Part shown: piece by piece, positions 1 through 64,000 of the stretch | Layout: every line of letters begins with the position of its first letter | Position numbering within the stretch: the first letter of the stretch is position 1 | Origin: Marvania coccoides | Lineage: Eukaryota; Chlorophyta; Trebouxiophyceae; Chlorellales; Chlorellaceae | Assembly: GCA_963854735.1 (NCBI GenBank) | Contig: OY978098.1 | Location: forward strand, 997,501-1,061,500 | Direction: 5' to 3' | DNA: 64,000 bases | Program-made: the position numbers and the translations under genes | Notes under the pieces: generated by a model | The model's input: only the letters and a program-made list of their open reading frames with translations | Told to the model about the DNA's origin: nothing | Databases searched by the model: none

Positions 1-3000
1 ACAATGAAGTCCTCAAGCTCAGACAGCTCCCCATCTGCGCCCTCCCCAGCAGCCCGCCGGGATTCCGCCACAATGGCCCGCAGATAAGGGTTTTGAATGT
101 CCTGCAGTCGCTTGCGACGCTGGTAGGCACTCCGCTGTTCTGCGGCCTGCGCCCCTCCTCCGGCACCGCCAGCAGGCACACCCCCAACCACACCTTGAGA
201 GCCCCCAGGCCCTTCTACGTCTAAATCCGAGCTGTTCACCGCATCAGCGGCGCCGTCGCCAACTTCTGAACAACCGTCGGTGTTGGTGGGCAGAACGAGC
301 GCAGGCGCGGCTTCCAGGCCTCGCAAACCAGCCACATACAGTGGGGACTGTCCCTTCATGGAGCGCATCAGCTCCAAGCACGACGTTTGCAAGTCTGATG
401 CTTGCTCGATCGCTGCCGCCGCCGCCCGCGTCGCTGCAGCGTCGCCCAGGCCATTAGCGTCGTCCCCCACCGCTCTCACAGCCTGCATGAACTCGGAACC
501 GAGCCCTAGGAAGCTGGAGTGTGACTCAATAGCGGCCAGGCTGTCTGCCTCGCCGTCTAACAGCACAGTAAGGCCTTTTGCCACCGAGACGCATGCGCCA
601 CAAATAGCCTCGATCAGAGCAGCTAAATGGGCTTCAGCGGCAGTTCCGAGGATGATTGTAGGGCTGGTCACAAGGGCTGCTGCTGCTGCGCCGTTTTCTT
701 CAGGAAATCTGGCTTGATCCGCTGCCGCCGCCGCTGCTGTTGCCGCTTGGCTCCTCTCCTTGCTCAGGCGCATCGCCGCCGCTGCGCAGGAGTCCATCAG
801 AGGCAGCGCCACGGTTGCATCCTCGCGGCACTCCTCCAGCGCCTCTCCCGCGCTGTCAGCCAGCAACTTCAGCAGCTGCTCAACCCCCGCTGATTTAATC
901 AAAATAGAAGCAGAAGCTGACACAAAGGGGTGTCCCCCCGCCTCTGGCGCGTTCTGGGTGAGCCACTCCGGCTTGGGGCATGCCGCGGCGGCCACGGTGG
1001 GGCGCAGCACCAGCCACAGCACCGCCGCAGCATAGGTGGCAGCGTCAGTGGCCTCCATAGCGCCTACAGCGGCCAGCCGCGGCAGCGCGCGCGCGGTGGC
1101 GGCGTCCAGCGCCGCAGCCATGAGCGGCGGATTGGTAAGAAAGCTGCGCACCGTGCTGCCGACATATCGCAGCGGCATCCACTGTGCCACTCTGCTGCCC
1201 GCCGACAAAGCGGCCACAGCAGCCCTATCCTCCTCTTCTGCAGCAGATAACGCGGCGCTGGCGAGCGCCACGTACGCGGCGAGCGTGGGAGGTGTTGTCC
1301 GCCGCGCTGTGCGGTACAGCAGGTCTCTCAGCTGCGCCACAAAGTGCAGTAGCGTCCCGCCAGCGGCATGCACTTCTGCGCTCTTCGCGGACGACATCCA
1401 GATGCCGGCGCCGTGGTTTTTCTCTACCGATTTGAGTATCTCACGCACGGCATTGCGGCGCTGGCCTGCAGAGGTCAGACTGCCGTATACTTGGTGACAC
1501 GCTAGCGGGGTGGTGGCGACGGCACTCTCCGCCACCGCACGCACTACCTGCAGCGCCGCAGCCAGCGCAGCTTGAGCGGGGTTCACAATTGATGTTTGGA
1601 GCACGGTTTGAGGGAGGAAGAACCCGCCATTGCCGCTGCCGTCTGCCGCTGCTCCATCCCCCGCTGACCCAAAAATTGCATCAAAGGCGGCGTCAACGTC
1701 GGCATGGCGGGGTGCGGCGGCTGGCACTGGGTGTGCACCTTCATCATACCACTCCTGGTACGCAGAATCCTGCAAATTATCCAAAGAGCAAAAAGAAAAC
1801 TGTCAGATTATTTCAACGGACTCAACCAAAAGCAGGTAAAATCTTCTCAGCAGAAACGTACCCCCAGCAGGTCCACGAGCTTCTCTTTGTCGGCGATGTA
1901 GGCTTGCCACATGGCTTCTCTCTCCGACTCCTCCATGTGCAGCGAAGAAGACATCATCACTCGACCAAAACCCCGAGCTTTGCCTACCGGCTGCCCTCCC
2001 GCCTCTTCTTTCACAGGAAGAGGAGCCTCCCCTCCATATTCGCCTTCTGCTTCTACCTTCTCAGCTTTTACCTCCACATCTTCCGCCGCAGCTGCAGGTT
2101 CTGGCGCCATCTTTTGCGGCATAATCCGCCTTTTTGCAGGAGACGGTGCCGCCGCATTCTCATCACTCCCTCCTTCTCCCGTCGCCCCCGCTTCGCTCTT
2201 GACCTCCACGCACACCATTGCTGCGGGAGCCGTCAGCAGGCGCAGCACGTCAGCCACCGCGTCCTGCCCAGTCCCGCCTTTGCCACCGGATTTCTTTCTT
2301 CGCTTTTCTTGCCCTGCGCCGCCGTTCCTCGCTGCAGATCCCCCTCCACGCTTCCTCAAACCCCCAGGTTCCAATCCATCCTTCCCCATCTGCTGCTGCT
2401 GCTGACCCTCAGCTATTAAAAGCGAGTGCAGGTGGCGGGAGGTTGAAATGGCAGCATGGTAAGCAGGTCCAGCATGCACAGCAGCATGCGGGGCGACTAC
2501 CCCCTTGAAGCATGCCTCCTGCACCCGCATTACGCGAGCCAAAAAGTCCATCAAAGCCGGCGCAGGCTCCGAGGCAGGCAGCGAACTCCCGCTGCTGCTG
2601 CCACCAGCCAGAGAGGAATTTTCCGACGCTTCCCCGCCCCGCAGCTCCCTCCCCGACTCGGTCACCGCTCCATGAATGGTCTCCAGCGCGTGGGATGCCA
2701 CTGCAGGGGGCAGCGCCAGCGCAGGGGCTTCTAACGAGGCGGGGGCATCCAACAAAATATCCAATACAATACCGCAGGTAGAAAGATGCCATAAGCGAGG
2801 GGAGGCCTTGCTACGGGGTCTTGCGCCACCCCCCGCTTGCGCCAGCTGCGCCAGCTCCCATCGAACGGCCAGCAGCGCCGCGATGGCGGTAGATTTTCCG
2901 CTGAGGTGGTCAGGCACCAACTGAGGATGCTTTGCCGCAGCTTCTATCAAAACTCCAGCGGTGTGGCTAGCAGTGTGAATCATCTGCACCGTTTCTGCGC

Positions 3001-3976
3001 CCAAGCGAGGTGCTGCGGCCCCCTCAGCACCACCACCAGCGGCAGCACCTCCGGCACCCTTGCTGCTTTGTCGAATGCCAGATCCCAGCTGCAGCATGCG
3101 ATGCACCGCCTCCGGCCTGCCCATTTCGCCCAGCAGTGCCACCGCATAGGCGCTGACGGTTGCGTCGCCAGCTTGGAAGCTTCTCTCCTCCAAATCCAGC
3201 AGCACTTGCAGCGCTGGCGGCAGCGCCGGCAGCAGCGTGACGTGCACCTCTGCGCCCGCATTGGCAGCTCCAAACGGCTCCAAACCAGAAGATACCAGCT
3301 GCAGGCACGCACCCACCACCTCCTTGGCCGCAAAATGCAGCGCAGCGAGCACAGCGACAGCGGCGGGCCCGACGCTCAGCGCTGCAAGCGAAAGCAGCTG
3401 CTGTTGCTGCTGCAGTTGCGCCGACAGCGTGGCCCACCCTTTGGCCTGAGTGGTGGGTTCCAGGCAGGCCAGCGCCTGGGAGAGCAGCGTCGCCGCTCCA
3501 GGCCGCTGCATCAAATCTTCCATGTGGCGCCGCCAAAAGAGCTCCCACAGCCAAGGCTGGCGCTGCATGCCGTCCGCCAACGCCTCCACCACGGCTTCTC
3601 GAAGCTCCTCCTCCTCCTCCACATTCACGTGCGTGGTGTTGGAGTAGTCGATTGAATTTTGGGCAGCGGCAGAAACCACAGCAGCATGGTCCAACAGAAC
3701 GAGGATGCCGCGGGCTAGAGCGCGCTTATCTACGGCGGGAGTGACGTACAGCGAGGGCCTCGCCTTGTTTGCGACGTTGGACGGCTTCAATGTGGACTGG
3801 GCCTGCTGCAGGAGGGCTTGCAAGGCTCTGACGATTTCGCCGCCCTGCTTGGAGGAAAAAACAAGAGCACAGGAGTTGGTATTAGCGTTGCGTCAAATAC
3901 CAGAAAATTTGCGATGGTCTGCATTGCCATGATCACGCGCCTGCAACCTCGAAATGCTCGCGAGGAGCTCGTCCAT
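1..3976 (-). CDS. Large helical-repeat protein, 5' part (runs off left edge)
   Basis: I do not recognise this gene. Three exons are visible: 3976-3941, 3844-1862 and 1769 to the left edge, giving at least 1,260 residues without a stop. It starts MDELLASISRLQ. Most of it is Ala/Leu-rich helical sequence that looks like an alpha-solenoid (HEAT/ARM style). A charged low-complexity region with KKRRKK- and KRRIMPQK-type basic patches, which could be nuclear signals, lies around residues 480-640. Near the left edge come RRKRLQDIQNPYLRAIVAES and an acidic SELEDFIV stretch. Intron 1 keeps frame only with a GC donor (GCGCGT); intron 2 is GTACGT/GCAG. A nuclear scaffold or RNA-processing protein is possible, but that is inference. 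Confidence 0.7.
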
Positions 3977-7352: not shown

Positions 7353-7703
7353 GATTTAAGACGCACGCCAGGGGCTCCACGGGTACAAAATGAGATTGTG
7401 GTGAGTGCTATATTCGTATAATAATGTAAAGATGGGTGATAATTGCACAGGAGCTGTGTCAAATTTGAAAAATCTAGCTACTAAGAAATTTTAGTACCTT
7501 CAATTCTTCAATTTCCAGTGCAAATAAAAATTAATTTAATCGTAATATCAGGTTCTTAGACCACACCTCTCAATTGGGCTGTCAGTGTGTCGGTGCATGC
7601 CCTTAACTCGCCGCACAAAATCTTTTCAATGTGCAAAAATAAATCGCTGTTCATCCTCGTTTCGTCCCCCCCTCGCTCCTCAAAGCGATGAGCGTCGCTC
7701 CCT
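7353..7703. promoter_or_regulatory. Head-to-head gap between GINS2 and the RecD2-like gene
   Basis: About 350 bp of AT-rich DNA between two divergent start codons. It must hold both promoters, but I see no clear TATA box or other defined element. The gene content on both sides (replication helicase subunit, DNA helicase) might suggest co-regulation; that is inference. Confidence 0.35.
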
Positions 7704-16360: not shown

Positions 16361-16456
16361 TGAAGAATGAGAAATACTACTTCTTACAAATGATGATAAA
16401 TATAAACCACGTTTTTCAAAGAATGCAGTTACTCATCGTTACCACCCCTCTATGTC

Positions 16457-17607
16457 ATGTTTTATGTGATGAAAATAGAAGCATGTGCAACAAATTCACA
16501 AATCTTACGTAACACACGCAACTTTAAGAATATTAATCACTCTTCCCCCCCCCCCCCCCCATGCCCTCCCTCTGCAGCCACTTGCACGATCCACCGCCTT
16601 TGCCGCCCTCCTCTCCCATTTTCTCCCACCGCCCACGCGTCTCTCAGCGTCAACGCTTCTGCTGCCGAGCCCAAAGTCCCGGTGGAGATGTCGCACCCTG
16701 AGCTGTACCCCCACGCCATCACCTCGCTGCCCCAGGGCGTGTCTGCAGCGCTCATCCAGGAGCGGCTGGGCTCTCCCGACGGCATAGAGGTGGTGCCCCT
16801 CACCGATCCCTCTGCGTTTGTCAAGCCGCAGGCAATCTACTATCACCTCGACGGCAAGTGCCTTTTTTTTAAAAATTGAGAAGTTGGGTTGAAACTAAAA
16901 AACGATGATGTCAGTTTTAACCAGAACCATCTTTCAGGCATTAAGAGGCGGTGGGACGCTGTGATCAGCCATGCATCGGTAGCTGTGCTCATCTTCCACA
17001 CGCAGCGCCGGGCGTACCTGCTCGTGCGTCAGTTCCGGCCGGCAGTCTACGCCGCCATCGTGAGGGTTGCAGCAGAAGAGGCCGCTGCTGCAGGGGCACC
17101 CCCGCCCCAGCGTCCTCCCCTCTCAGCGGGCTTCACCTTTGAGCTGTGCGCGGGGATCGTGGACAAGCCTGGGCTGTCGTTGACGGAAATTGCTCGGGAG
17201 GAGATTTTGGAGGAGACGGGGTACGCTGTGCCTGCTGAGAAGATCACAAAGGTTACGTCCTTCCTGACCGCTGTGGGAATTTCAGGCTCGCGCCAGGTGG
17301 GTATATAATACTTCAAAATAATTAATCAGCGAAAGAGTGGAATTCATCCGCTCATTTTTCGAGCTATTAATTTGTGCTGCAGACTGTTTTTGCTGCGGAG
17401 GTGGACGACTCGATGCTGGCAACGGCGGGACAGCACGATGTGGCTGGGGGTGGGCTGGCGGCGCATGGAGAGGCCATCGAGGTTTGCCTTCTTCCCTTCG
17501 AGTCGGTGGACGCCTTTCTGCTGGACGAGAAAGTGAACAAGAGCACCGGACTGATGTGGGCAATGCAGTGGTCCAAAGACCGCTTCGAGAAGACCGCACA
17601 GCATTAG
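16457..17607 (+). CDS. Nudix hydrolase, NUDT14-like (UDP-sugar pyrophosphatase)
   Basis: Resembles human NUDT14, which hydrolyses UDP-glucose and ADP-ribose. Exons: (16457 or later)-16853, 16938-17296, 17383-17607. The core reads RRWDAVISHASVAVLIF, LLVRQFRPAVYA, FELCAGIVDKPGLSL then an EEILEETGY Nudix helix, VGISGSRQ and LMWAMQWSKDRF. The first intron keeps the YYHLDG|IKRRWD frame only with a GC donor (GCAAGT). The start is uncertain: a C-run and CCCTCTGCAG at 16543-16577 look like an intron 3' end, so the true first exon may lie upstream. The first conserved Met is near 16688. The first Nudix-box arginine position is Glu here. Confidence 0.85.
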
Positions 17608-19659: not shown

Positions 19660-22600
19660 ATGGTAAAAGCTTATCTTAGATACGAAGAGGCTCAAGCTTT
19701 TGGGGTGATTACCAGCAAGTCGAGCGTCTGCTATGATCGGAATGGCAAATATTTTTTCACAGGCGCGCTGGAGCGCGTCGCCGTCTGGGACCTCAAACAG
19801 GCAGTTTTGGTGAGTAGAGGGTGCACTTGCAGCGCGCCGTCCACCTTGTATTTTGTTCATTTTCAGACTCCCAAATTTCCCCCTGCTGCCGCCGCTCACT
19901 CTCAATTCTCTTTTTGCAGGTTCGCACCCTCATTCCCCCTCCCTCCCTGTCTGGAAAGGCCTCACGGGAGGTGACCTGCATCGCCGCCTCCCCCGTGGCC
20001 AATCAAATCGCTGTGGGCTATGGCGACGGCACGGCAAGTATTTTATTACATTTAGCTTATTCTAATAAGTTTATATTTCATTTAATTCATATTCAGAATT
20101 AATAATCAATTGATTCATCGATTTTCTATTTTTTCTTCTGCAGATTCGGCTGTGGGGGGTCGACTCTTGGGACTGCGAGTGCACATTCACGGGGCACCGC
20201 TCCGCAGTCTCCGCCCTGCGCTTCTCCCCCTCAGGCGCTCACCTCGCCTCGGGCTCCCAAGACTGCGCCGTGGTGCTCTGGGACGTCTCAGGCGAGGCAG
20301 GGCTCTTCCGCCTCACCGGCCACCGCGGACAAATCTCCGACCTCGCGTTTCTGGGCGGCCCGGGATTGGGGCGGCTGGCTACCGGCAGCAAGGACGAGCT
20401 GGTGAAGGTTTGGGACTTAGACACTCGGCATTGCTGCCAGACGGTGCCTTGCAGGGGCGGTGAGGTTTGGGCATTGGATTTTGACGCCAAGCACGCTCGG
20501 CTGGCGGTGGGGGTCGCGGACGCGGATCTGCGGGTGTACGGCGTGGACGCTGGCGCGCCTGAGGACGTGCTGCATGAGATGGGGGCGGTGCGAAGGGCGG
20601 CGAATGAGCGAGCTGCCACTGTGCGGTATGGGGCGGCCCCTGATGGGGGCACGCTGTTGCTGTGTCAGGGGGCGGGCAAAGTGACGGAGGTGTGGCGGAT
20701 GCGCGACGAAGCGGAGGCGCGGAAGCGGCAGAAGCGGCGGAAGCGCCGAAGGCGGGAAAAAGGACGCAGCGGTGGGGGAGGAAAGGACGGAGACGAAGGA
20801 GAGGACGAGGGCGACGGCGAGGACGCAGCAGAGGATGCGCTGATTGCGGGGGATGAGCTGGAGCTGGTGGCTACGGTGCGCTGCAAGCACAAGGTGTCTT
20901 CTGCCACGCTGGCCCCCTCTGCCAACCGCAGGGGGCCCACACGGGTGGTGCTGGCGCTGTCGAACAACTCCATCGAAGTTTGGGAGTTCAAGGACGGCGA
21001 GACCCCCGACCGGGGGGCCGCGGTGGACGGCCCAGGCCACCGCTCTGACGTGCGTGCTGTGACGCTTTCTTCCGACGATTCCCTGTGCCTTTCTACCTCA
21101 AATTTCGGGGTCAAACTGTGGAACCCGCGGTCGGGCGCCTGCCTGCGCAGCGTGGAGGCGGGGTACGGCCTGTGCGCGCTGTTTGTTCCCGGCAACAAAC
21201 ACGCCATCGTCGGCACCAAAGAGGGCACGCTGGAGGTGATTGACGTGGCTGCGTCGGCGCGGGTGGCGGTGGTGAAAGCTCACAGCGGGCCGGTGTGGTC
21301 GGTGGCGGCGCTCCCCGACGGCAGCGGCTTTGTGAGTGGGAGCGCAGACAAGGACGTCAAATTTTGGGAATGGGACCTCATCGAAGAGGAGGGAGATGCG
21401 GAGGAGGGGGGAGGCGGTGGAGGGCCCAAGAAGATGCAACTGGGAATCGTGCACACCCGCACACTCACCATGACTGACGATGTGCTGAGTGTGAGGGTGA
21501 GTCCCGACGGGAAGCTGCTGGCGGTGGCGCTGCTGGACTCCACCGTGCGCGTCTTCTTTACCGGCACCCTCAAGTTCTTCCTGTCGTTGTACGGCCACAA
21601 GCTGCCGGTGCTGTCGATGGACATCTCGTCAGACGGCTCGCTGCTGGTGACTGGTTCTGCCGATAAGAATATTAAAATTTGGGGGTTGGACTTTGGAGAC
21701 TGCCACCGCTCGCTGTTCGCGCACGCCGACTCGGTGATGGCGGTGGCGTTCGTGCCCAAGACCCACTACGTGTTCACAGGTAAGCAGCGAGGGGGTAGTT
21801 TTTATCGAAAATTACCAAGATAGCAATTTAGCCATTGCCCGTGGACGGTTTAGCCATTGCTCGTATTAATGGCTATCCTACCTTGTGACTGCCTCCTCTT
21901 CTAGTTCCTCCTATTCTAGCTTTCCACTGCTGCTAATATTTCGTACTCTTGTTCAATACCGCCAGGTGGAAAGGATGGCACCATCAAGTACTGGGACGTC
22001 GACAAGTTCGAGCAGCTGCTGGAGTTGCGGGGCCACCACGGCGAGGTGTGGGCGCTGGCGGTGTCCAGCCTGGGCGACTTTGTGGTGAGTGGCTCTCACG
22101 ACCGCAGCCTCCGCCGGTGGGAGCGCACCGAGGAGCCCTTCTTCGTGGAAGAAGAGAAAGAAAAGCGGCTGGAGTCGCTGTTCGAGGAGGACCTGGCGCA
22201 AGAGGATGCGCGCCCGCTCACTCTGGGCCCAGAAGGCGGCACAGTGGGGGAGGCTGCAGGCGGGGCAGCGCCGGCTGGAAGAAAGACGCTGGAGACGGTG
22301 ACGGCTGCTGATGCTATCGTCGAGGCGCTGGATTTGGCAGCGGAGGAGGAGGAGCGGCAGGCGGAGGCGGAGGCGGAGGCTGCGCGGCGGGCGGCGCGTG
22401 GGGAGGCCGCTGTGCCCCCTCCCCCATCGAATCCGCTGCTGCTGGGGCAGTCGCCGGAGGACTATGTGCTGCGTGCGGTGGGTGGCGTGCGGGGAACCGA
22501 CCTGGAGCAGGCGCTGCTGCTGGTGCCGTTTGCCGACGCGCTGCGCCTGCTGCGGTACCTGGCAGGGTGGCTGCGGAAGAGCTCACGCGTGGAGCTGCTG

Positions 22601-24329: not shown

Positions 24330-24909
24330 ATGACCAACGGCCAAGCCACAGTGTCGCAAAGCTCTGGAGCGAAAGTAAAGGAGCTATTTCGAAAATATGG
24401 CAAGGTGGCCATCGGCGTGCACATTGTAGTATATGCGACATTTTTAACAGGCACGTATCCGGCGCGAAACCTTTGATTTTCGCAAGTTTCAAGTCCATTC
24501 TCATCGAAACACCTCTTCACACTCTCCAACTCAAACTCATTCCTCCTCCTCTCCTCCAGGATGCTACGTCGCGGTGGATAGCAAGGTGGATGTGCGCGGA
24601 GCCCTCTCCAAAGTGGGTCTTTTGTCTCCCACGAGCTACGACGAGACTGCCGACGCAAAGCCTGAAGACCGAGGGTGGATGGACAAGATGCTGAGCGGCG
24701 GGAGCTCCACCTTTGCGCTAGCCTTCATCTGCAACAAGGCTCTTTTTCCTGTGCGGACTCCCATCACCGTGGCACTGACGCCCATGGTAGCAAGGCGAGT
24801 TTACTTTTATTTGTTTGTTTAAAATAAGTGGGTTTCAGCTAAATAAGCACCCATATTTTCATGCAGATTTTTGCGATCGAGGAACCTGATCAAGCCACAC
24901 ACTCCCTAA
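24330..24909 (+). CDS. FAM210-like protein (DUF1279)
   Basis: Three exons (24330-24450, 24560-24794, 24867-24909) encode 132 aa. The DUF1279 signature is plain: KELFRKYGKVAIGVHIVVYA, TGCYVAVDSKVDVRGAL, then FALAFICNKALFPVRTPITV and ALTPMVARFLR. Family members are organelle membrane proteins (human FAM210A is mitochondrial). Both introns need GC donors: GCACGT after the codon split giving T-G-C-Y-V, and GCGAGT within VAR|FLR. A second GT within GCACGT would shift the frame. The 5' end has no obvious targeting peptide beyond a Ser/Gly stretch. Confidence 0.88.
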
Positions 24910-25191: not shown

Positions 25192-26217
25192 ATGTTCAAT
25201 TTTGGGCCTCCCGCTGCCGGCAATCAGGCGAGTAAACGATTGTCATTTCAACGAACAATTAACCTGCTGTTCATAGCAACTCAGCAAACCAACTGTATTC
25301 TATATCACCACTCAAATTTACAGGCGCCGATGGCTGAGCGAAAAGCCGCATTTGCATTTTCACTGACTGCATTGAACGAGCAGTTTCGGGCGTAAGTTGA
25401 ATCTCACGCCCAACCGTGGAAAAATTACACCTTATTCCCAGATGGTGATGGTAATGGTATGCAGGTGGGTGACGAGCCAGGACAAGGCCGAGGTGTGGAC
25501 CGACGGTGTTGAAGACTATCTCACCTACGCCAAGCAGCTGCTGTCAGAGTACCATGACGTAGTGGCAGCAGACTCCACAGCCCCCCCCGCCGCCGCCCCC
25601 GCAGCGCCAGCGCTGTTCAATTTTTCTGCAGCCCCAGCGACGGGCGCATTCAGCGGAGGATTCGGCTTTGGGACGGCTGCAAACGGCGGCGGTGCGGCTG
25701 CGGATGACGATGAAGATGACGAAGAAGAGGAGGAAGAGGAGGAGGCGGACCTGCAGCTTGATTCTTCTACCGCCGACATTTTGCACACTCAGCGTGTCTC
25801 TTTGCTCAGCATGGACCATGCAATTAAAAAGTGGAAGAATAGGGGGATGGGCACGGTGTCTGTGCGTCGCAGCAAGGCCCCCCCGCACTCTCCATACCTC
25901 GTTTTCACCACCGACGCTGGCAGAATTTTGATCAACGCGCCCCTTCCAAAGGGCATGAAGCCAGTTGTGAACCCCAAGATGCCGAAAAACCTCATCATGG
26001 TGCTCATTTCGGTGGTAAGGAGCAGTCTGTGGCTGCTGATAAGCAGGATTTGGGTGGGTGGGGGTAATTTTGGCTGAATATATGAATTTTTTTGACCCCC
26101 TCCGTTGTATGCTCGCAGATTGATGGCCAGGAGGACCGCGGCATGCAGATGTTCAAGTGCGAGAGCGCGGATGCGCGAGATGAGCTGAAGACAGTGGTCG
26201 AGAGCGTCTGGGTTTGA
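25192..26217 (+). CDS. NUP50-like nucleoporin with Ran-binding domain
   Basis: Four exons (25192-25227, 25324-25391, 25465-26014, 26119-26217) encode 250 aa. The N-terminus has FG-type motifs (MFNFGPPAAG), then a helical segment (WVTSQDKAEVWTDGVEDYLT), an Ala/Pro linker with FGFG, an acidic run of about 20 Asp/Glu, and a C-terminal Ran-binding-type PH fold (RVSLLSMDHAIKKWKNRGMG, VRRSKAPPHSPYLVFTTDAG). This order fits NUP50/RanBP2-like nuclear-pore basket proteins that assist import-complex disassembly. The first intron has a GC donor (GCGAGT). An earlier start cannot be ruled out. Confidence 0.78.
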
Positions 26218-27798: not shown

Positions 27799-29887
27799 GT
27801 GATCACGGTGGGCTTGTCCCTGCCGGTGAACTCCTGCAACTTGGACACCTCCAGCGCGGTGCCGATGATATCCTTCAGCACCGTCTGCGCGTCCTCATCA
27901 AACAGCGCTGCGTCCTGGGTGTACGCCTCGATGTACAACCGGATGGTGGCGCCCGCGGAGCCGGTGCCGGACAGCCTGAAGATGATGCGGCTGCCGTCGC
28001 TGAACACAAACCGCACGCCCTGGTTCTTAGCCACGCTGCCGTCGATGGGGTCGGTGTAGGTGAAGTTGTCAGCGGTGTCCAGGGTGTACTTGCCAAAGAC
28101 CTGGCCCTTGGAGGAGCCCGCGATGACGGTGCCGAGGTGCGCGATCATGGCCTCTGCCTGCGCCGACTCCACGCCCTCATAGTCGTACCTGGAGTAGAAG
28201 TTGCGGCCGAACTTGGCCCAGTGCTCCATCACGATGTCGCGCACCGACACGAGGGGGGCTCCAGCCGCAGTTTTGGCGTTCTTCGCTGCCAGGATAGACA
28301 TCCAGGCGAGCACCGCCCACAGTCCGTCCTTTTCCCGCACGTGGTCCGCGCCGGTGCCGAAGCTCTCCTCGCCGCAGATGGAGCACTTGTCGGCGTCCAT
28401 GAGGTTGCCGAAGAACTTCCACCCCGTGGGGGTCTCGTAGAAGGGCAGGTTGAGGGCCGCCGCCACGCGGTCCAGCGCGCCGGAGGTGGGCATTGAGCGG
28501 GCCACGCCCTTGAGGCCGTCCTTGAAGTAGGGGATGGCTTCCTGGGCGTTGGCGGCGATGATGGCCACGGAGTCGGAGGGCGTCACGAAGAAGTGGTCGC
28601 CCAGGATCATGTTGCGGTCTCCATCGCCGTCGGAAGCAGCGCCGAAGGCGGGGGCGCCGTCGCCGTACATGATGTCCACCAGCTCGTGGGCGTAGGTCAG
28701 GTTAGGGTCGGGGTGGCCGCCGCCAAAGTCGGGCAGCGGGATGGCGTTCATCATGGAGGCGGCGGGGGCGCCGAGCTCGTCCACAAACAGCGGCGCCGCG
28801 TAGGCGCCGGTCACAGCGTGCATGGCGTCGAATACGAACCGGAAGTCGGCGCGGGTGACGAAGCTGCGGAGGGCGTCAAAGTCAAACACCTCTTTCAGGG
28901 TGGCAAAGTAGTCGGAGGTATAGTCCACGACCTCGACCTCGAAGGAGCCAAAGGTGAGGGTGCCCACCTTGGAGAGGTCGACCTCGGGGATGTCGGCCAT
29001 GCTGAGGGCGGAGATGGACTGCGTGAACCCGAAAATTTTGTCGGTGATCTTCTCGGGGGCGGGCTCGCCGGCGGAGTAGTTGAACTTGATGCCCCAGTCC
29101 TCGTCGGGGCCAGCAGGGTTGTGGGAGGCGGACATGATGAGGCCGCCGTAGAGTCCGCGGCGGCGGATGAGCGCGGACATTGCGGGGGTGGCCATGATGG
29201 CGTCCTTGCCGACCACCACCTTCTTGATGCCGTTGCCGGCGGCCAGCTTCAGCATGATCTGCACCGCCTCTTTGTTGAAGTAGCGCCCGTCGCCGCCGAT
29301 GCCGATGGTCTGGCCCTTGGCCTCGTCACCCAGGGCGTTGAACAGCGACTGCACCCAGTTGGCGAGATAGTTCTCAGACATGAACACCTTGGTCTTCTTG
29401 CGGAGACCACTGGTGCCGGTCTTCTGGCCCTCGATGGGCGCGGTGGGCACGCTGGCCACCGTGAAACCCTGCGGGGGTGAAACAATTGTCGTTTAGAGAC
29501 AAGATCGCGAGATTTTTGGGGTGGCCAACATTTTCGGCGAGGCAGAGAAATGTGGCGAGTGGCACGCCACTGGCTCGGGATCTAACCTCCATCTGCGCAG
29601 TGGCGTTGACGGTGAGCCTGGAAGAGGCTTGCTGAGGGGAGGTGACGCGCTTTTGGGCGAAACTGCCAACAAAGTTGTTGCCAAACTGGTGGACGGCCTT
29701 GGCGCTGCAACAATTGAAATAAATGGAATTGAGTTAGCGACGCGGAGGGGCGTTCGACCAAAAATACGTCCAACAGCGAAAAAATCCAAGTCACGCTTTC
29801 TTGCCCCAAAGCGCTTGCTGATCCAGCACCGGCGTATTGCGGGGCAATGCGCGGTGGAGACGCGGTCCAAGGACTACGATGGGTCAT
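27795..29887 (-). CDS. PGM1: Phosphoglucomutase, plastid form
   Basis: Interconverts glucose 1- and 6-phosphate at the entry to starch synthesis. The model has three exons: 29887-29805, 29704-29587 and 29468-27795, 624 aa in total, essentially the length of the Arabidopsis plastid enzyme (623). The first ~65 residues are Ser/Ala/Arg-rich and transit-like ([20 protein letters not shown]). The core has [10 protein letters not shown], the catalytic loop [16 protein letters not shown] (phospho-Ser182), the metal loop [15 protein letters not shown] and [14 protein letters not shown]. The last exon is certain; the middle exon is well supported by frame. The first exon is inferred and needs a GC donor (GCAAGA). 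Confidence 0.93.
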
Positions 29888-34656: not shown

Positions 34657-35520
34657 ATGCTCGGAAGATTTGTAGCTCGGCCAAGGCCGTGCAGCTGCCA
34701 AGCAGCAAAAGCGAAAGGCAAGTATTATAATTTTGCTCGGCCCTTTCATCTGCCGCCCCCTGCCCCAGCTCAACTCTCCCTGTTTTCTGCAGCTGGCGGC
34801 AAAAACAGCAATACTGTCACCATCCGGTTCAGCATCCCCTACAGGTGCCGCTTCGGGCAGCACCTGCGGGTTGTCGGCGGGTGCACCGCCCTTGGCGACT
34901 GGGATCTCAAGGAGGCACTGCCGATGATATGGCAGGAAGGCGATGTGTGGGCTGCAGAGGCGCAGCTGCCTGTGGGGCGCGCGATGGACGTGGAGTACAA
35001 GTACGTGGTGTGCGAGGGCGATGAAACCAGCACCAGGGCGGCCTGGAAGCCTGGCAACAACTTCGTGATCTCGCTGCCTGGCAGCGGCAATGGCTCGGTA
35101 AAGGTGAAGGACGCGTGGGATGAGGCCCACAGGGAGGTGCAGATCGAGATGATGAGGGGAGGCCGGGGCAGGAGCACAGCCGCCAAGGTGAGAGACCAAC
35201 AGATAAAGAAGTTTGCTATTTTATGATCCCCTTTGTTTACCTCAGTAATGAAATGAAATTTATTGGGCTGAATAATAAATTTGCAGGGAAGCAAGAGTGA
35301 GGCCGAGCAGGCTGTGGCAGCGTTGTCGACCGTCGCTGCCAGCGCTCTGCAGCAGCTGGAGGGGGCGGTGCGGATGTCGCTAGAACTGCTAGACAGCTCC
35401 GCAGATGTAGCCAGCCCTGAGCTGCTGGCTGCAGACCGCATGGTGGCGGCAGCAGCGCAGCGAGCGGCGATGATGACGAAGGCACTGGACGTTGCCGCAG
35501 TGTCTCCTCCACCGCCGTGA
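34657..35520 (+). CDS. CBM20 starch-binding-domain protein
   Basis: Three exons (34657-34717, 34793-35187, 35287-35520) encode 229 aa. The short basic N-terminus (MLGRFVARPRPCSCQAAKAK) may target a plastid. A CBM20 domain follows at about residues 25-130: VTIRFSIPYRCRFGQHLRVV, GCTALGDWDLKEALPM, YKYVVCEGD and AAWKPGNNFVISLP, with the tryptophans that contact glucan. The C-terminal 75 residues are helical and Ala-rich. The domain binds starch; no catalytic domain is present, so it may be a scaffold or regulatory protein of starch metabolism. Intron 1 has a GC donor (GCAAGT) and intron 2 is GT-AG. Confidence 0.82.
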
Positions 35521-35896: not shown

Positions 35897-36833
35897 TCAC
35901 ATTCCAGCAGTCATCTCCACCACCTCATCAAGCGTGATGTTCTGATCCTCGCCCCTGAAGTCGTTGTCCTCAGTCAAAAACAGCATGCAGTGGCACTCCT
36001 GCAGGAAAAATGACGAAGTCGAGATTAGTTTCTAACAGGGGGAGGGATAGAAAATGAGCCATGAAAAGGAAGTGGAGAATAAACACGCTTCGACTATGCT
36101 GTTAACTGGATAAGCGCCAGCAATAGCAAAGCATTATTATTTTTAATGAGATATCTTCTCAACGCCAGATACTGGAAACTTGCCTTCCGTTCCCTCATGG
36201 GCACGCAAGGGCAGTTCCAGAACCCCTGCTCCGCCTCTGCTGCTTTATCGTCGTAGTGCCTGCAGGGGCACAGCGGCGCACCCAGCTCGTCCTTGTGCTC
36301 AGCAAGGCCCTGCGATAAAAAAACGTGCTGGCGGTGAAAATATCTAGTTTGTGCATGCCAGTTCAGCCACAAGCAGCGAGATTTGAGCGGTCCTTACCTT
36401 AATCACGACCGCAGTGACGGATTTGTCCACGCAAAAGTAAGTTCCCGATCTGCAATGAGTATTTTTTTGTGGGTAGGAAAAATGATAGATGATCGAGATA
36501 AACACACTAAAAAACGCACTCCTCCGCCAGCGCACCTCTGGGCATACTGCTCTGAGAATTTGCGCATGACCTCTAGGGACTTGAGGTCCTCCGGAAGGTC
36601 CACGACGTGAGTATCTACAAAAATGAATTGAAATTTTGAGTTCCGACTTGATTCCCTCCGAAATGCAGCGTTGTGCTCCATATATCACAACTCTATTGTG
36701 ATGAGTATTCACCTGGCGCAGATCGCACCACCGTGGGCCTCGGAGACTTTTCCAGGCGTCGAGATGAGAAGAACTTCAGGCTCTCGGGCGCCATCGCCAT
36801 CGATCCATTGCTCACACGAAGAGAGAACGCCAT
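35897..36833 (-). CDS. FTRC: Ferredoxin-thioredoxin reductase catalytic chain, plastid
   Basis: Transfers electrons from photosystem I-reduced ferredoxin to plastid thioredoxins. Five exons (36833-36713, 36614-36536, 36449-36398, 36309-36184, 35998-35897) encode 159 aa. The first ~45 residues are a Ser/Arg-rich transit peptide. The mature part has LEVMRKFSEQYAQRSGTYFC, LCPCRHYDD, FWNCPCVPMRERKECHCMLF and LTEDNDF. All cysteines of the 4Fe-4S cluster and redox disulfide (CPC, CPC, CHC) are present. Intron 4 has a GC donor (GCAAGT) exactly at RERK|ECHC, where the protein is almost invariant, so this GC-AG intron is particularly secure. Confidence 0.95.
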
Positions 36834-42097: not shown

Positions 42098-43305
42098 CTA
42101 CAGGTGTCGCAATAGTCGTAAGAATACAGAGGGCGCCGACACCCTCACTTTGATGTCAGAAGCGTCGATGTCGTGGCCGCCTTCCACTAAGCCCCACTCC
42201 TCAATCTGGTGCTCCTCCTCCAGGCGAGACGCCTTCACAACCTCTTGCACCCCCAGCACCCCCTTGACTGCCGCCAACGCCACGCAGACAGACTTGCACG
42301 ATGCCGCCAGCTGCTCCGCCGCAGTGAGCTCCCATGGGCTCAATGCTGCATTTCAAAAGTAATGGGCAAAGGATCAAAATTCGTCTGAGTAAATGGTCAT
42401 CAGGAAAAGGTGCCCAAAAAAATCCCGTCGAGCTGCCAAAACATTTCTAAAACAATAAATGCATAATCAATATGTGCATAAACTCGCCTTGCAAGAATCG
42501 CCTCAGTTTCTCTTCGTCCTCCTGCTTGATGTCCGCCCCAAAGATGGAGTCCGTGGGCTGCAAACCCACCCCTATCTCTTGGCTTGCCCACTCCAGCACG
42601 GGGTCGAGGGTGGCTGCCTGCTTGTCAGCAATGACCCCTCCCTCCAACCGACACACCACAGGGTCAGTGGGCACGAACTGCAGCATGGTCTCAATCACCA
42701 GGTCACGGGGCTGGGGCTGGTCGATAGCTGTGGCTGCCAGCGACATCAGCGGCATCGTGTTGGTATCAATTCGACGGGTCTGCACAAATAATAAAAATGT
42801 CATTATTATAGACTGCTGAAAAGCGAGATACGGGCTGATTTTACTCCCAGAGATCTAAATATGGGAATTATTTTAAGGACTGCGGACCTGCCACTCCCAC
42901 TCTGCTGCAATGGCCAGGGCCAGCGCCCGCGTGGGCACCACCAGCGGGCGCTTGGCTGGAGACTTGAGCACACGGTTGTCCAGTTTGATCACGAATCCAG
43001 ACTGTAATAATTTAGAAGTCGGATTTAGAACCGATGTTTGTGAGTCGTTTGGATGAAATGCAAGCATTTCTTAGAGGCCGGCGGTGAAATTCTAAAATAC
43101 GAACCTGGTCCGGCGCTGGCTCAACGCCGACCGTTTTATAAAATCGCAAGATGCCAGAGGTCGATGTATTGGTATCTGCGACGCCGTGGGTGGCGAGCCC
43201 ACGAGAAAAAACAGAAAATGGCCACCCTGTAGCCACTGGCACCTCCCAAGGAGCAGCTTGCCACAGCTCACGCACTGATGGTAACACCGATCGTGTTCTC
43301 CACAT
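42098..43305 (-). CDS. ATPAF2: ATP12-like mitochondrial F1-ATPase assembly factor
   Basis: Chaperone that binds the F1 alpha subunit during mitochondrial ATP synthase assembly. Four exons (43305-43105, 43001-42888, 42779-42488, 42345-42098) encode 284 aa. The N-terminal MWRTRSVLPSVRELWQ is a presequence. The conserved core reads ILRFYKTVGVEP, FVIKLDNRVLKSPAKRPLVV, ALAIAAEWEWQ, DTNTMPLMSLAATAID, LQFVPTDPVVCR and the LDPVLEWASQEIGV segment, all as in the ATP12 family. Intron 3 has a GC donor (GCGAGT). Confidence 0.93.
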
Positions 43306-48780: not shown

Positions 48781-51700
48781 TTAGAAAGCATGGAAGCTCA
48801 TCAGCGGGTCTTCCCAGTTGCCTCTGCCCCTGCCCCGCCCTCCCCTGCCCCTTCCGCGCCCCCTCCTGCCTCCGCCCCCACCCCTCCGCATGTACGCCTT
48901 GCCGTGCTTCACCTGGGACAGCGCGGCCACAGCATCGTCGCAGGCAATGCACGCCGACAGGGGCTCGCCCTCCTTCGCATGTGGTATTGACCCCGGCAGC
49001 TTTCCTTTCTTCCATTCCAAATCCACCAGAGACAGCCCGCACTTCCCGCACTCCTGCTGCCCGACCTTCGCCCTGTGCAGGTTGGGCGGCAGATACATTA
49101 GAAAGTCGCACATGTTGCAGCTGATGCGCCACGCGGGCGTCGACACGGGGTCCAGAATGAGAGTCCCCGGCTCACAGGCGGCGCAGGGGCCCACCGCGTT
49201 CCTCGCCGGGCCATGTCTGCACGTGGGGTGCAGGCACGTACTGCACGGCATCCCTCCTGAAGCTTTGTCCCCGGTGAGAATGGCGTCTTCAAAGGGAGGG
49301 TAGTTGTAGCAGAAGGGGCACAGCACCGTATTCTTGCCGTCGGCGCCGCCCAGGGAGTAGAGTACCAGCTGGAAGCCGTCCAAGGGGCAGGTGAGCTCCT
49401 TGTAGAGCTTGATGCTTCCACCTGCGTGCGAGGAAATGACCCAAAGCATTAATAACCTAATTCTTATTAGTTCGTTGTTTAATTTAATTCGAGTTAAAAC
49501 CAAAAATTGTGAAAATACCTTGAGGTACGGAATAAACCTCTTCGCAGGTGGGGCAGTACAGCCGGGACGGCCGGGAAGCCACCAGCTTCATGTAGCGTGA
49601 ACACTTGCCGCACTTTGAAAGCACTTTGCCAGAGGAAGCCAGCGGGGTGAAGGCAGCCTCAAACAGCTGGTCCATGCGCTGCAACACAAAAAAACAATAA
49701 ATAAATAAAAACTGGAAAATAACCTACTTTCGTTTAGCTGTCGAGCGTGTGCTTTCTTTTTATTTCAATATCAAATCAATCGCACCTCGATGTGCCCAAC
49801 AAAAAAATCAAACTTCTGCTTGAACTGCTGCAGGCAGTGCTCCACCACTGCGTCTTTGTCAGCCTCCCCCTTTGCTACCAGGTCGATCTGCTTCTCCACG
49901 TACGCTCGAACGTTGGGCCTGCACAGCTCCGCGTCGATGGTCTGGTAGCCCCGCACCAGCGTGATGCCCAGCTCCGTGGGCACCACCCGGCGGCCAGACT
50001 GAATTGAAACGAAGTTCCGCTCGCAGATATTGTTGATGTGCACAGGAATGGAGGCGTCGGTGCCTGCAGTGACATACGCCGTCGAGAGTAAATAAAGCAG
50101 CACGAACAAAGAGAGAAAATTGACATTTTCTATTTTCTATTTACCGATGCCATTTTTCTCCATGCGTTCAATCAACTCGGCCTCCGTCAAGTAGTCTGGC
50201 GGCGAGGTCTTGCCTTCCACCAGCTCCACCTCAGAAACCTGCAGCACCTCCCCCTTTGCCAGCGGCGGCAGCGGCTCCGCCTGCACTGTGCGCCAGTGCA
50301 CGACAGACGTGAAGCCAGGCCGCAAAACAGCGATGCCGGAGGCGGAAAACGTCTCCCGGCCGGCCTCAAGGGTGGCTCTGGTCTTGCGCAGCACGCAATC
50401 GCTCGAGAGGGACCCCAGAAAGTGCCGCGCCACAAAACTGCGATCAGAAGAAAAAAATATTCCTATTGAGTGGCGCAGAGAAGAGCTCCCAACTCGACCC
50501 AGGAAGTATTCAATTAAAATACTAGTAATAGAAGAACAAAAGCGTGGTGATAACTCACTCGTACAGGCGCCAGGTGTCGCCGCCACCTAGCTGCTCCTCC
50601 GTTGCCGTTCTCACCGGCGTTATGGGGGGATGGTCCCCAACATCCACCCCTGAAGAAGGCGGATTGAACCCTCCCTGCACCAGCGCCGCTGCGTAGTCCC
50701 CCCACACCGGGTGCCGCACCTGCGCCTCGAGAAGCGAAGCGAAGTCAAAATTGGGGGGGTACGCTGAAGACTCAGTGCGGGGGTAGCTGAGGTAGCCCTG
50801 CGAGTATAGCCGCTCCGCAATCTGCATTGTGTGCGCTGGACCAATGCCCAGCGACGCTGATGCCGTTTTCAGCATTTCTACGGTGTTGAGGCCGCTGGGC
50901 CGCGGCCGCCGCTCCTCTCTCTCAGTGACCTCCGCCACGCGCAGCGTTCGCGCCTCCGACACCAACTTTCTAAAGCAAACGCCTATCTCAAAGTCGAAAA
51001 CTCGGCCCCGCCCCCATTCCAGCTTCAATCGGTGCCCAGCCTTGCTCAGCCCGGGCCTCACTACCCAAAAAGGCTCCGGCTGGAACGTTTGTATGGCCTG
51101 GTGGCGCTCCACGCAAAATGTGAGCGTAGGGGTCTGGCAGGGCCCGTACGAGATGACCGAGCTATCGAGATTGCCATACTTGGACTGGAAATAGCGGGAT
51201 TGAAATCGGGTGAAGGCGACACCTACTTTTAAATCGAGCTCTTGCCGGGCGTCAACGGCCAGCGCTTCCGCGCGGTTGGGAGACACCAGTTTGGTCATGG
51301 CACCGTGGATTTCAGGGGCGCTGATGGCGGAGAAACGGGCCCGGAAGATGCGCTGGCGGCGCAGCGCGGGCGGCAGCGTCTGCTGCGGCTTCATCCACCC
51401 TTCCGTGTTGTCAATGACCTGCCAAAGAGAGAGAAAAATCAGTCGATATTTAAATAAATAAACTATGTAAATTGTGAGCTGGAAAGGACTCAACAGCAGG
51501 TAGTAGCTGCTCTTCTCCCATGATAGTGTGCGCAAAGTACTACTCGCCTCAAAGCAGATGTTCTCGCCCTCGCGGTCGCAGTCTAGCCACAGCACCAGCG
51601 CGTCGCAGCCCTTGGCCTCGGCCTGCAGGTGGCGGCACACCCTGGCTTTGGGGTTGGCCTCGGTTTTTTGGGTCGGGGCGCCAAACAGCGTGGAGGGGTC

Positions 51701-57421: not shown

Positions 57422-57868
57422 CTATTCCGTTGCCGCCCCCGCCCCCTCTTCACCCTCAATCTGAATCGCTCCTTCAGGCATATCCACGAACTCCACGTCG
57501 TTGTCAAAGTCGAACCCTTCAGGCAAATCCACATTGTCGGACAGCTCGATGCCCTCGACTGAAAAGTCTCCTTCAGAAGCGTCCCCATCCACCTCTTGCC
57601 CGTCTTCCCCCCCCTCCTCTTCACCTCCCTCCTGCGGTGCTGCGGCTTTCACCATATCTGCGATCTTTCCTCCCATCATCGACTCGAAGAAAGCAGCCGG
57701 GATGGCAAACGATTCGCCGCCCTCCTCACCTTCGTCTTCTTCATCTCCTTCCTCCATGTCCACTGGGAACGGCGCGCTGTCGTCCTCTTCCTCGTACGCG
57801 AAATCCTCTTCCTGCTCTTCACCCGGAGGTGGGGAAGGCTGCAGGCCAGGTGCGGTGCCGTCATACCT

Positions 57869-57900
<32 letters not shown>

Positions 57901-60350: not shown

Positions 60351-60853
60351 TCAGCGGCGGTGGAAAGAGACGTAGCTCAGCAGCAGCGAGGTCCCCGTAC
60401 GGAAGGCAACCACGTAGGCCAGCACGATGAGCGGCGTGTAGAACACAAAGTTTTCGTCGTACCCAAAAAACTCCCCAACGAAGTCGCCCACGGTGCCGTC
60501 GATGGTGGTGGTGCCGTCAGCGGCCGCGATCTCGAAGGGGACGTCCGAGTCTGCCATTTGGCTGCCGGCGAGCCCCTCTAGGATGTAAGAGGTCGGGCTG
60601 AGGCGGTTGAGCCATTTCCACCCAGCAGGAGTTTGAGGGTAGGGGACCTGCGAAATAAGAAGGAGTGGTAGTAGAAGAAGACGACGTGAGAGGGATTATT
60701 GAAGGAAATTTGACAGGGGCGTCAAAGCATGTATATCGCAAAACAATTTCAACTAACTCACCAAGAATCCGTTGAAAATAGAGAAAATCTGGACAGGGAA
60801 ATAGAGAGGGGGGGGTATCAGTTGAAAATGCGTATGGTTAAATAAGCAGCACC

Positions 60854-60902
<49 letters not shown>

Positions 60903-63900
60903 TAATTAATGGCGGGTGGCGACCAGGAGAAAAAATGCTTACCTGGTTCAGGAAAGCGGCGCACAGCTGCGCCAGCAGCGGGTTTGGCGTTGCGAAGACG
61001 AGAAGCTGCCCCAGATAGGTGTCTGCACGAATAACAGTAACAATAGAGATATTAGAGTAGGATGAACGAGGCACACTAAAAAAACGGCCGATTTCCGAAC
61101 TCACAGAGGACGAGCGTCAGGAAGAAGAGCAGCAGGAAGAAGAAGAACTTCCACGCGACGGCCTGGAAGCCGACCATCCAGTAGCTGACGATCACCATGA
61201 CGAATGCCTGTACTGCCAAGTAAGGCAGCTCAGCGACACCCTGGGCAAAACCCAGGATTCTCGGGGCATACTGCAATAGAAGGGGTTTCAATTATTCGAT
61301 ATTAATAATATTTTAATTATATAAAGTAATAATATCTGTGTAAATTTTGAAAGTAAAATAGTTTCCTCCGCACCATCGCTGCAGCCCGTTCGCGGTAGAA
61401 CACAGTCCGCTCTGAGGACATGATGGGAATGACCGTCATGCAGTTAAACATGCCGTTGAAGATGGCCATCGAGAACGTGAGGCCCTGCGTTAAGTAAAGA
61501 AAGAAGGGAGCGTGAATTGATATGATGAAAAATGCCTCCTCCTCGTATTCTTAAACAAAATTAGCACTTGCCATGATATTCTGCACGGTATCAACGCCAG
61601 CAGGAGGCGCACCAGGGCGCACAGCTTTGCCCTCGTTGAGATACACCAGCCCTGCAGCACAACCACCAGAAGGACACGCGACCATGATTGAGATAGATTA
61701 AATTAAGAAAGCACGCCTTCCTATAATACTGAAAGTCACAGAGACACGAACATTTAACGTACCGTAGACCAGGGATATGCCCAGGGTCATCGCAATGCGC
61801 ACAAAGTTGTAGTGCGGCGCCCTCCAGTAGTACGCAAAGTACTTTTTCAGCAACTCCCGCAGCTGCGTCTTGCTGCAGGTGGCGTACAGTCCCGTCATCG
61901 CCAGCGGCTCGCTAGCATCCGAGCTGCTGGCCGCCAGCTCCCCCATCAGCTTGAGATTCACCTGCCGCAGCTCGCTCTTTTCGAAAGCATCGGGGAAACT
62001 AAGCTCCGCCGCTTTAAATGTGGTGGCCATGCTGCCGCCGGTCACCTCCAGCATCCAGGTGGCGGGGTTGTGCCCGGGCTGGATGGGGTCCACGCCTGGG
62101 TAGCTCTGCAGGTAGGCAATGAGGTCTGAGGACTCGCAGCCCAGCGGGCCAAAGTATGTCAGGCGTCCGCCCTTTTGCATCAGCACCAGTTGGTCGAAGG
62201 CCTCGAAGATCTCCATGCTGGGCTGGTGCACGGTCACCACGACGGTGCGGTTGCTGTTGGCGACGTTGCGCACCGCCCGCATGACAATGGCGGCGGCGCG
62301 AGCGTCGAGCCCGCTGGTGGGCTCGTCCTGACGAGAAAAATGAAAAATGAAAGAAACTCATTGAGCACTTGTGATATTGTGATTCATTATCAGTTAAAGA
62401 GCGCACGTATTTGTGTTTTGAAGGAAAGCAATGGTGTTCATAAAGCGCCCCTCAGCAAAATTTAAATGTGCCACAGTTAACTCACCATGAACATGACGCT
62501 GGGGTTGGCCACCATTTCCACGGCGATGCTGAGCCGCTTGCGCTGCTCGATCGACAGTCCGTCGGCCCCCGGCTCTCCCACAATGCTGCTGGCCTTTCCT
62601 CGCAGCTCCACAGTGTCCAGCGTGTGCTCAACGATGGCAGCCACCTGGGAGTCGCTCACCTCGGCTTCGTTCAGCCGCAGCCGGGCGCTGAAGGCCAGGC
62701 TCTCCTTGACCGTCAGCCTGGCGGAATGGATGTCCATTTGCTCGACTGCAAGAGAGCGGGGGAAAAAATAATTAAATAAATAAATAATAAAGGATATATA
62801 TGAGGGGGGTTGAAACAGCAGTGATGGTTATTCAGTACTGTAGTGTATTGTGTTCGTTTTCTTTCTTACCGTAGCCCACCACCCTGCTCCAGGTCTCCTG
62901 AACTTTCGGCCGACCGTTGACCAAAATTTCACCCCTAATCACGCCCTGCGTCTTGCGCCCCGCCACCACGTCCATAAGCGTGGTCTTCCCCGCCCCTGAC
63001 CCACCCATCAGCGCCACCAACTGGCCAGGGCAGGCGTAGAAGTCGATGTGGTTCAGCAGCCGCAGCTTCCCGGCAATTTCCTTATCTTCAGAGTCCTTGA
63101 TGACGTTGGGGGCTGTGCCACCGGAAGGGTCGTTGACGTAGTAGCAGATGTCGCGGCAGGAGAGCGTGATGGGCACAAAGGGCACCACCACGCCCTCTCT
63201 TTTCGCCGTCACCGCCGGCCGAGAAGGAGATGAAGGGGACGGCGGGGTTTCGCCGTCTGCGCGCTCTGCGGTGACTTCCGGACGGCCAGGGACGCGCTCC
63301 ACCGTGATTTGGGGCAGCGGCTCTGCGCCATCGAGGTCTGACTCGGTGTGCAAGGGCCCGGAGGGATCCGCTCCAACGGTGGAGGAAAGGAAGCGCTTGG
63401 ACCTGGCAGCGATGGCCTTGAGCGACTTGGCGGGAGAGAAGGTGCTGGAGGACTCGGTGAGGGAGTCCACGCGCACGCGGCGGATGTAGTTGAACAGCTC
63501 CTTTTGCATTTCTTCCTTCTGTTCCTCCACGGGAACTGCAGATCGCAAGAGAAGAGCAAGCAAGTAAGCGGAAGAGTGGATCAGTACGCAAACATGGTCA
63601 AAGATACTCGTCAGAAAACATAGAAGCGATACATATGTTGCAGGGGCAAAACATTTTTTTTAGCAGAAACACACCCATCGGCAATCAAAAAAATCTTCCC
63701 AATCAATAAATTCAAGGTGAAAGGGGGCTTACCATTGGGCTGGGGGGACGGGGGGTGGGTCCACGTCAGCGCCATCGCGCTCATGATGGTCACAACGAAG
63801 ATGTACCCCCAGTTGAACCCGACTGCGATCCAAATCCACACAGTGTCATCGGGCATGCCAAAGGAGTCCAAGACCACGGGACCAGCGGGGCCCCAGCGCG

Positions 63901-64000
63901 GGGCGGTGAGCTCGTTGATGCATAGGGCCCTGATGGAGTAGGCCATGGGGTTGAGTCCCCAGTAGATCCAGATGAGGTAAGCAGGGATGGAGGAGGCAAT
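60351..64000 (-). CDS. PDR-type ABCG transporter, C-terminal half (continues past right edge)
   Basis: Full-size ABCG (pleiotropic drug resistance) exporter. Ten exons are visible: 64000-63733, 63535-62870, 62745-62486, 62327-61763, 61651-61572, 61484-61374, 61270-61105, 61022-60943, 60788-60762 and 60647-60351. The first visible part ends transmembrane domain 1 (WIYWGLNPMAYSIRALCINE). The second nucleotide-binding domain has Walker A GGSGAGKTTL, Q-loop VEQMDIH, signature LSIEQRKRLSIAVEMVANPS, DEPTSGLDARAAAIV and TVHQPS; transmembrane domain 2 follows with SERTVFYRERAAAMYAP. The exon ending at 61572 has a GC donor (GCAAGT). The substrate cannot be inferred. Confidence 0.92.
60854..60902. repeat. 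A-run followed by (TA)n in an ABCG intron
   Basis: About 27 A followed by 11 TA units within an intron of the transporter gene. Confidence 0.9.

Follow-up and report, generated by a model that had tools for sequence, protein, structure and literature searches.

Does the green alga Marvania coccoides (Chlorophyta, Trebouxiophyceae) begin an unusually large share of its introns with GC instead of GT? The question is raised by a stretch of 64,000 nucleotides of contig OY978098.1 (positions 997,501 to 1,061,500; hereafter the window), in which hand-built gene models had given about 15 GC-AG introns among 71. The original prediction added that 5' splice-site recognition may be relaxed or changed in this lineage. 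We examined the frequency and sequence context of GC donors in the window and elsewhere in the genome, the conservation of proteins across the GC junctions, and components of the splicing machinery, with regard to the second intron base (+2). GC donors account for 18.0% of GT and GC donors in our models, and C at +2 is concentrated in donors that otherwise match the consensus closely.

Frequency of GC donors

A semi-Markov gene finder was self-trained on 314 kb of the 22.46 Mb genome (15 contigs), comprising the window and a further 25 stretches, each of 10 kb, spread over six contigs (20 from C1 and one each from C3, C4, C5, C7 and C9). All 16 donor dinucleotides were equal at the start; G at -1 and RAGT at +3 to +6 were mildly favored. 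AG acceptors were imposed; they fit at nine junctions checked by homology. Loci L001-L012 were excluded from training, L001-L008 because they had been picked by a GT pattern. The models were built from sequence alone; neighboring genes are sometimes fused and some acceptors are wrong. Each intron was given a margin, which is the score lost when its donor is forbidden.

The first training round returned 124 GT and 42 GC donors among 301 calls, with 18 for the next dinucleotide. The converged finder made 346 calls, 234 GT, 61 GC and 12 GA, and GC therefore represents 61 of 295 GT and GC donors before filtering. The 14 remaining dinucleotides received 51 calls (3.6 each, maximum 12). At a margin of at least 4 we obtained 179 GT, 35 GC and 3 other donors (217 calls), and at a margin of at least 6 there were 107, 23 and 0, respectively (130 calls). 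The GC share over all samples at a margin of at least 2 is 48/266 (18.0%, 95% confidence interval 13.9-23.1), which is borderline for a GC-AG-rich algal genome (roughly 20% or more), and 23 of the 26 sequences carry at least one such donor. GC donors were found in 40 of the 99 model genes having scored introns; because some models are fused, the proportion per real gene is somewhat lower.

The share is not peculiar to the window. Unfiltered calls there were 19 GC and 48 GT, giving 13/60 at a margin of at least 2 and 9/49 at a margin of at least 4, while the stretches outside gave 35/206 at a margin of at least 2 (17.0%, 95% confidence interval 12.5-22.7; p=0.45 against the window); about 1% is usual for eukaryotes. 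The result also depends little on how the finder is trained. A start with 98% GT converged at 253 GT and 56 GC (56/309), and training without the window gave 188 GT and 42 GC (42/230). A start with no donor model settled three bases inside the intron; when the register was read back, which was possible in 249 of 333 introns, it gave 157 GT, 53 GC and 12 GA (GC 53/210). Across these routes GC makes up approximately 17-25% of GT and GC donors. Ambiguous intron placement was ruled out as the origin of the GC calls, since none of the 61 GC introns becomes GT-AG by a product-preserving shift of up to 12 bases. When the finder was allowed GT plus one other dinucleotide, GC gained 508 score units and the runner-up, AG, gained 244; the latter value shows that the finder fits much noise, and we therefore regard these gains as support for GC donors and not as a test. 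Overall, the high GC-donor share is confirmed on sequence evidence.

Protein conservation across GC junctions

Nine GC junctions in genes picked for their clear families were compared with PDB chains: ferredoxin-thioredoxin reductase (FTR) catalytic chain, TOP3B, WDR3, proteasome RPT6, a ClpC-like protein, REV3, an aldo-keto reductase, NUDT14 and ATP12. No gap interrupts any of the nine alignments at the junction. No in-frame GT lies within 30 bases of the donor in five of them (TOP3B, ATP12, NUDT14, REV3 and the aldo-keto reductase), and in the other four the use of an in-frame GT with the same acceptor would lengthen or shorten the protein at that point. It had been argued that the conserved protein demands the GC site in FTR-B, WDR3, TOP3B and NUDT14; all four are among the gapless junctions.

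Donor context of C at +2

In order to describe the surroundings of the +2 base, we counted matches among six flanking positions (-2A, -1G, +3A, +4A, +5G, +6T). At a margin of at least 2 the GC share for one to six matches is 0/2, 0/11, 2/79, 8/115, 27/48 and 11/11. The trend keeps its shape at margins of at least 4 and at least 6, the latter giving 0/27, 2/64, 12/26 and 9/9 for three to six matches. Thus C occupies +2 in 10 of 207 donors with fewer than five matches, and in 38 of 59 with five or six, where it exceeds the C/(C+T) ratio of introns (0.408, p=0.0003). The same dependence appears when donors are sorted by motif, with GC shares of 31/56 for G|GYAAG, 12/75 for G|GYGAG and 0/35 for n|GYGAG.

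As expected of U2-type GC-AG introns, agreement with the consensus at its seven other positions is closer in GC than in GT donors (means of 5.52 and 4.58). The difference is seen at -1G (0.94 of GC and 0.72 of GT donors), +4A (0.98 and 0.78) and +5G (0.98 and 0.90), and -1G occurs together with +5G in 0.92 of GC donors, while in GT donors the exon side and the intron side trade off. Pyrimidine tracts are no stronger in GC introns (0.691 vs 0.696, p=0.63), and the donors show no clear preference at +7.

The perfect donor word behaves differently in its two forms, AGGTAAGT and AGGCAAGT. Within the 314 kb, AGGTAAGT occurs once and is not a donor there, whereas AGGCAAGT occurs 15 times, 11 of them as donors. 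No GT donor among 218 has six flank matches, where 7.0 would be expected with independent columns (p=0.0002, 5000 shuffles). Genome-wide there are 185 copies of AGGTAAGT (91+94 on the two strands) and 732 of AGGCAAGT (364+368); the reversed words number 724 (376+348) and 264 (137+127), respectively.

We also compared the introns with one another. Nine pairs among the GT and GC introns are alike at E<=1e-3, four of them within the same four introns, and no GC-ended family emerged; the spread of a GC-ended introner family is therefore not supported. The four introns in question (indices 132, 137, 141 and 266; two GT and two GC) share stretches of 95-226 bases at 81-90% identity, likely an interspersed repeat.

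Splicing machinery

The U1 family search gave two matches at E<=1, with 41 of 431 first-look candidates scored. One is full-length, aligned end to end at 58.8 bits (the Rfam cut-off is 69.5), and has the canonical 5' end ACUUACCUGG, which leads us to reject a change of the main U1 opposite +2. Directly before this 5' end the gene reads CA; the consensus reads UA there, with an A ahead of it. The gene lies on the minus strand at L009:1501-1652 (G000:C1:2148218-2148369) and starts CAACUUACC where the consensus starts AUACUUACC, so that a different base faces intron position +7. Pairing of +7 with altered U1 and U6 bases is not supported, given the absence of a clear +7 preference among donors. 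The second match is weak (L010, 18.6 bits); it starts atacctacctg and shows no change opposite +2.

We also searched with a pattern built from the U1 5' end plus stem, leaving the base opposite +2 free and tolerating at most three mismatches. It returned 11 words, and its reversed counterpart returned 5. The 11 comprise the U1 gene itself, one word with two mismatches and nine with three. The two-mismatch word (G000:C5:760043-760062) carries a G opposite +2, as a U1 that reads C would; it is a candidate only, and is absent from the U1-family matches among the 41 candidates scored. By a rough count, chance would supply about 0.3 words at two or fewer mismatches, and the word may thus belong to a variant U1.

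U6 is present in two identical copies that have ACAGAGA intact and read AUAACAGAGAAAAUU instead of the GAUACAGAGAAGAUU of the Rfam consensus, located at L011:1501-1601 and L012:1501-1601 (G000:C2:1511042-1511142 and 1518569-1518669). Both have A before ACAGAGA, where the consensus has U. METTL16 recognizes the target motif UACAGAGAA, and this A would break it, although a gene of the METTL16 family (PF05971) is present. The presence of that gene is in line with the high frequency of +4A in both donor classes.

U1-C has a complete zf-U1 domain. DIM1 is identical to the human protein in the LGTGNNN loop, while its N-terminal ~20 residues were not found. DIM1 grips +2 through its backbone at G97 and N99 in the human B complex (PMC10943123), and a changed DIM1 pocket can be rejected from the identity of the loop. 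One LUC7 gene was found (L038:397-2033, G000:C8 around 694 kb), and the other plant/animal LUC7 type was not seen. A literature search on splice-site handedness and LUC7 yielded no paper. Among entries with an organism name, the protein of the LUC7 gene is nearest to those of Chlorella vulgaris, Auxenochlorella and Chlorella sorokiniana, while ten higher-scoring entries carry no such name; several of the named nearest relatives are labelled Luc7-like 3. Neither the main U1 nor DIM1 shows an obvious cause of the GC-donor share.

GC-AG introns in the window

Thirteen GC introns of the window have a margin of at least 2 and could be assigned to genes named in the original prediction (Table 1); the matching is by gene, as coordinates had not been given. 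They cover all the named genes but the one at the left edge, where two GC calls have a margin of 1.3 each and are doubtful. The earlier figure of about 15 of 71 holds as a frequency, whereas of its individual introns the left-edge one and the other FAM210-like one, at a margin of 1.9, fall below the filter.

Table 1. GC-AG introns of the window, with exon|intron donor sequence and finder margin.
Gene	Position	Strand	Donor	Margin	Remarks
NUDT14-like	16854..16937	+	ACG|GCAAGT	5.8	Gapless at junction to NUDT14 8otv; no in-frame GT within 30 nt
WDR3/UTP12	20034..20143	+	ACG|GCAAGT	9.1	Gapless over GYGDGT|IRLW to WDR3 7mq8
FAM210-like, other GC intron	24415-24559			1.9	Below the filter of at least 2
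FAM210-like	24795..24866	+	AAG|GCGAGT	9.6 (donor)	Acceptor TTTTCATGCAG read by eye
Probably NUP50-like	25228..25323	+	CAG|GCGAGT	3.8	
PGM, first exon	29705..29804	-	GGG|GCAAGA	3.3	
32-33 kb gene	33057..33128	-	CAG|GCAAGC	6.6	
32-33 kb gene	33189..33264	-	AAA|GCAAGC	6.1	
32-33 kb gene	33500..33579	-	CAG|GCAAGT	8.6	
CBM20	34718..34792	+	AAG|GCAAGT	2.9	
FTR-B (ferredoxin-thioredoxin reductase catalytic chain)	35999..36183	-	AAG|GCAAGT	4.6	Gapless over MRERK|ECHCMLF to 7bzk, 1dj7
ATP12	42346..42487	-	AAG|GCGAGT	3.6	Gapless at junction to 2p4x; no in-frame GT within 30 nt
TOP3B	51419..51547	-	GAG|GCGAGT	5.1	Gapless over ENICFE|VID to TOP3B 9cah; no in-frame GT within 30 nt
ABCG transporter	61485..61571	-	ATG|GCAAGT	4.3	

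The intron with its donor at 24795 is an example of a wrong acceptor in the finder's models: the finder ran this intron to 25175, fusing two genes, while by eye it ends at 24866 and is followed by an in-frame exon of 43 bases with a stop at 24909. The window also contains, at 7688-12013, a large gene interrupted by few introns that would encode a RecD/TraA-like helicase; helicases of this kind are common in bacteria.

Possible explanations

We lean towards an explanation in which splicing is of the ordinary kind and C at +2 is tolerated, and favored, in near-perfect sites. The introns would be ordinary introns of the major (U2) spliceosome, spliced as modelled. A C at +2 would cost one base pair with U1 and would be accepted only where the exon end and positions +3 to +6 pair almost perfectly, as in sites of the AAG|GCAAGT type. 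In such a context C could have been fixed many times and so have come to outnumber T, partly because little would select against it there. The dependence on flank matches is what follows from the proposal of Churbanov et al. (2008; PMC2490688) that GC donors can become fixed neutrally where the site context is strong, but C in strong flanks lies above the neutral share. A disfavored perfect AG|GTAAGT site may add to this excess. An extension of the last point, which we entertain only tentatively, is that U1 pairs optimally when complementarity is less than perfect. Selection would then act against AG|GTAAGT, C at +2 would be a favored means of lowering the pairing of an otherwise perfect site, and the see-saw between the two sides of the donor would reach even the "invariant" +2 position.

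Several observations weigh against these proposals. GC donors are weaker on average than GT donors in nearest-neighbor energy (-5.0 vs -7.1), and the energy of AAGGTAAGT, -10.1, is not beyond the values of GT donors in use, which extend to -11.6. GC donors in weak flanks may have escaped the finder, an omission that would make the low end of the trend steeper. As a word, AGGTAAGT is about as frequent as its parts predict: under an order-3 Markov model 1.3 copies are expected in the 314 kb (6.6 for AGGCAAGT) and one is seen, so that the notable point is the absence of the enrichment that a good donor should show. The lack of six-match GT donors is a small effect, as the expectation of 7.0 falls to 6.6, 4.2 or 1.2 if weak sites are assumed to have been missed and the sample is treated as cut at 2, 3 or 4 matches. 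Nor is AG|GTAAGT forbidden, being used in one of two overlapping models of the gene beside LUC7 (L038, outside the counted sample).

Ordinary splicing with a tolerated C must be weighed against a change in a trans-acting factor that eases the reading of C at +2. Candidates are a second U1 with a changed base, a modified A7 in U1, a further protein of the U1 small nuclear ribonucleoprotein, and PRP8, RNF113A or SF3A2. For other algae, RNA modification or U1 proteins were put forward by Iwata and Gotoh (2011; PMC3033335), and the C5 word with G opposite +2, the departure of U6 from the Rfam consensus beside ACAGAGA and the single LUC7 gene would agree with such a change. We nevertheless consider it unlikely, because C remains rare in weak contexts, because the candidate word on C5 is not among the U1-family matches (41 of 431 first-look candidates scored) and the reversed pattern yields nearly half as many words, and because U1-C and the DIM1 loop are normal and the PF05971 gene is present. 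The original prediction is thus supported only in part: the frequency of GC donors and the consequence for gene prediction hold, but the U1 5' end, U1-C, the DIM1 loop and the rarity of C in weak contexts give no sign of relaxed or changed recognition, which may still reside in a variant U1, PRP8 or other factors. Base composition, with GC-biased mutation and conversion turning GT into GC, has been proposed for GC-rich algae. The published high shares do come from genomes of 65-70% GC, and coding third positions here are 74% GC. The sampled 314 kb, however, are 55.8% GC, without the very high GC content of those algae, and introns are 41.8% (GT) and 42.8% (GC), which makes composition a weak explanation here; C at +2 also lies far below the intron C/(C+T) ratio in weak contexts and above it in strong ones, and a lesser rise has occurred in animals, the cyst nematodes. 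We regard this account as improbable.

It is more doubtful still that GC introns persist because their weak sites serve regulation, through alternative splicing or retention. In human, nematode and Arabidopsis, alternatively spliced genes are reported to be enriched in GC donors (PMC2490688), but here such donors are found in housekeeping genes such as RPT6, TOP3B, WDR3 and REV3 and in 40 of the 99 model genes with scored introns. Finally, the GC share could be an artefact of the gene models, as in Heterorhabditis, where the 8.9% GC-AG introns of the first gene set were cut to 0.8% by re-annotation (PMC5906903); our own models were made as described above, with fused genes and calls at other dinucleotides. 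The gapless alignments refute an artefact for the nine junctions concerned, and the agreement among the alternative trainings makes it hardly credible for the remainder.

Comparison with other lineages and significance

Similar or higher GC-AG shares have been published for three algae, and GC-rich donors are thus not without precedent. In Emiliania huxleyi 56% of 241 junctions are GC-AG, nine of the GC junctions having been verified by reverse-transcription PCR (PMC4028052). Iwata and Gotoh (PMC3033335) give 39.6% for Aureococcus anophagefferens (69.5% GC) and 22.2% for Micromonas pusilla (65.9% GC), but 2.7% for Micromonas RCC299 (64.1% GC) and 7.7% for Chlorella sp.; they link the shares to GC content with reservations, report a canonical U1 5' end for Aureococcus and M. 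pusilla, as found here too, and call the origin "an enigma". M. coccoides resembles these algae in a share of tens of per cent or close to it (18.0%) and differs in that its genome is of 56% GC with introns of 42%. That C almost replaces T at +2 where the flanks are perfect is not described in the accessible text of those reports. In the part of the literature covered, we found no report of a GC-AG share of approximately 20% in a genome of middling GC content.

Animal and plant GC-AG introns (<1% to about 2%) likewise have the rest of the donor closer to consensus, and are roughly ten times rarer than here (PMC2490688, PMC7072748). The cyst nematodes Globodera and Heterodera (quoted at 3.5 and 4.3% non-canonical sites, mainly GC-AG) also have a raised share, lower than the present one (PMC7593179). 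The GA donors of Eurytemora and Oikopleura are likewise a lineage-specific rise of non-GT donors; a variant U1 isoform has been proposed there (PMC7072748), whereas M. coccoides has only the candidate word on C5. The trade-off between exon and intron sides known from the two 5' splice-site classes AG|GU and |GURAG (PMC9803359) is shared by the GT donors, whereas the GC donors differ from both classes in that mostly both of their sides are strong.

For M. coccoides itself, gene prediction restricted to GT donors would harm many genes, as had been anticipated for standard predictors. More generally, the combination of AT-rich introns with a high GC-AG share would separate a shift in donor usage from GC-rich DNA, and would make the "enigma" of GC-AG-rich algae testable.

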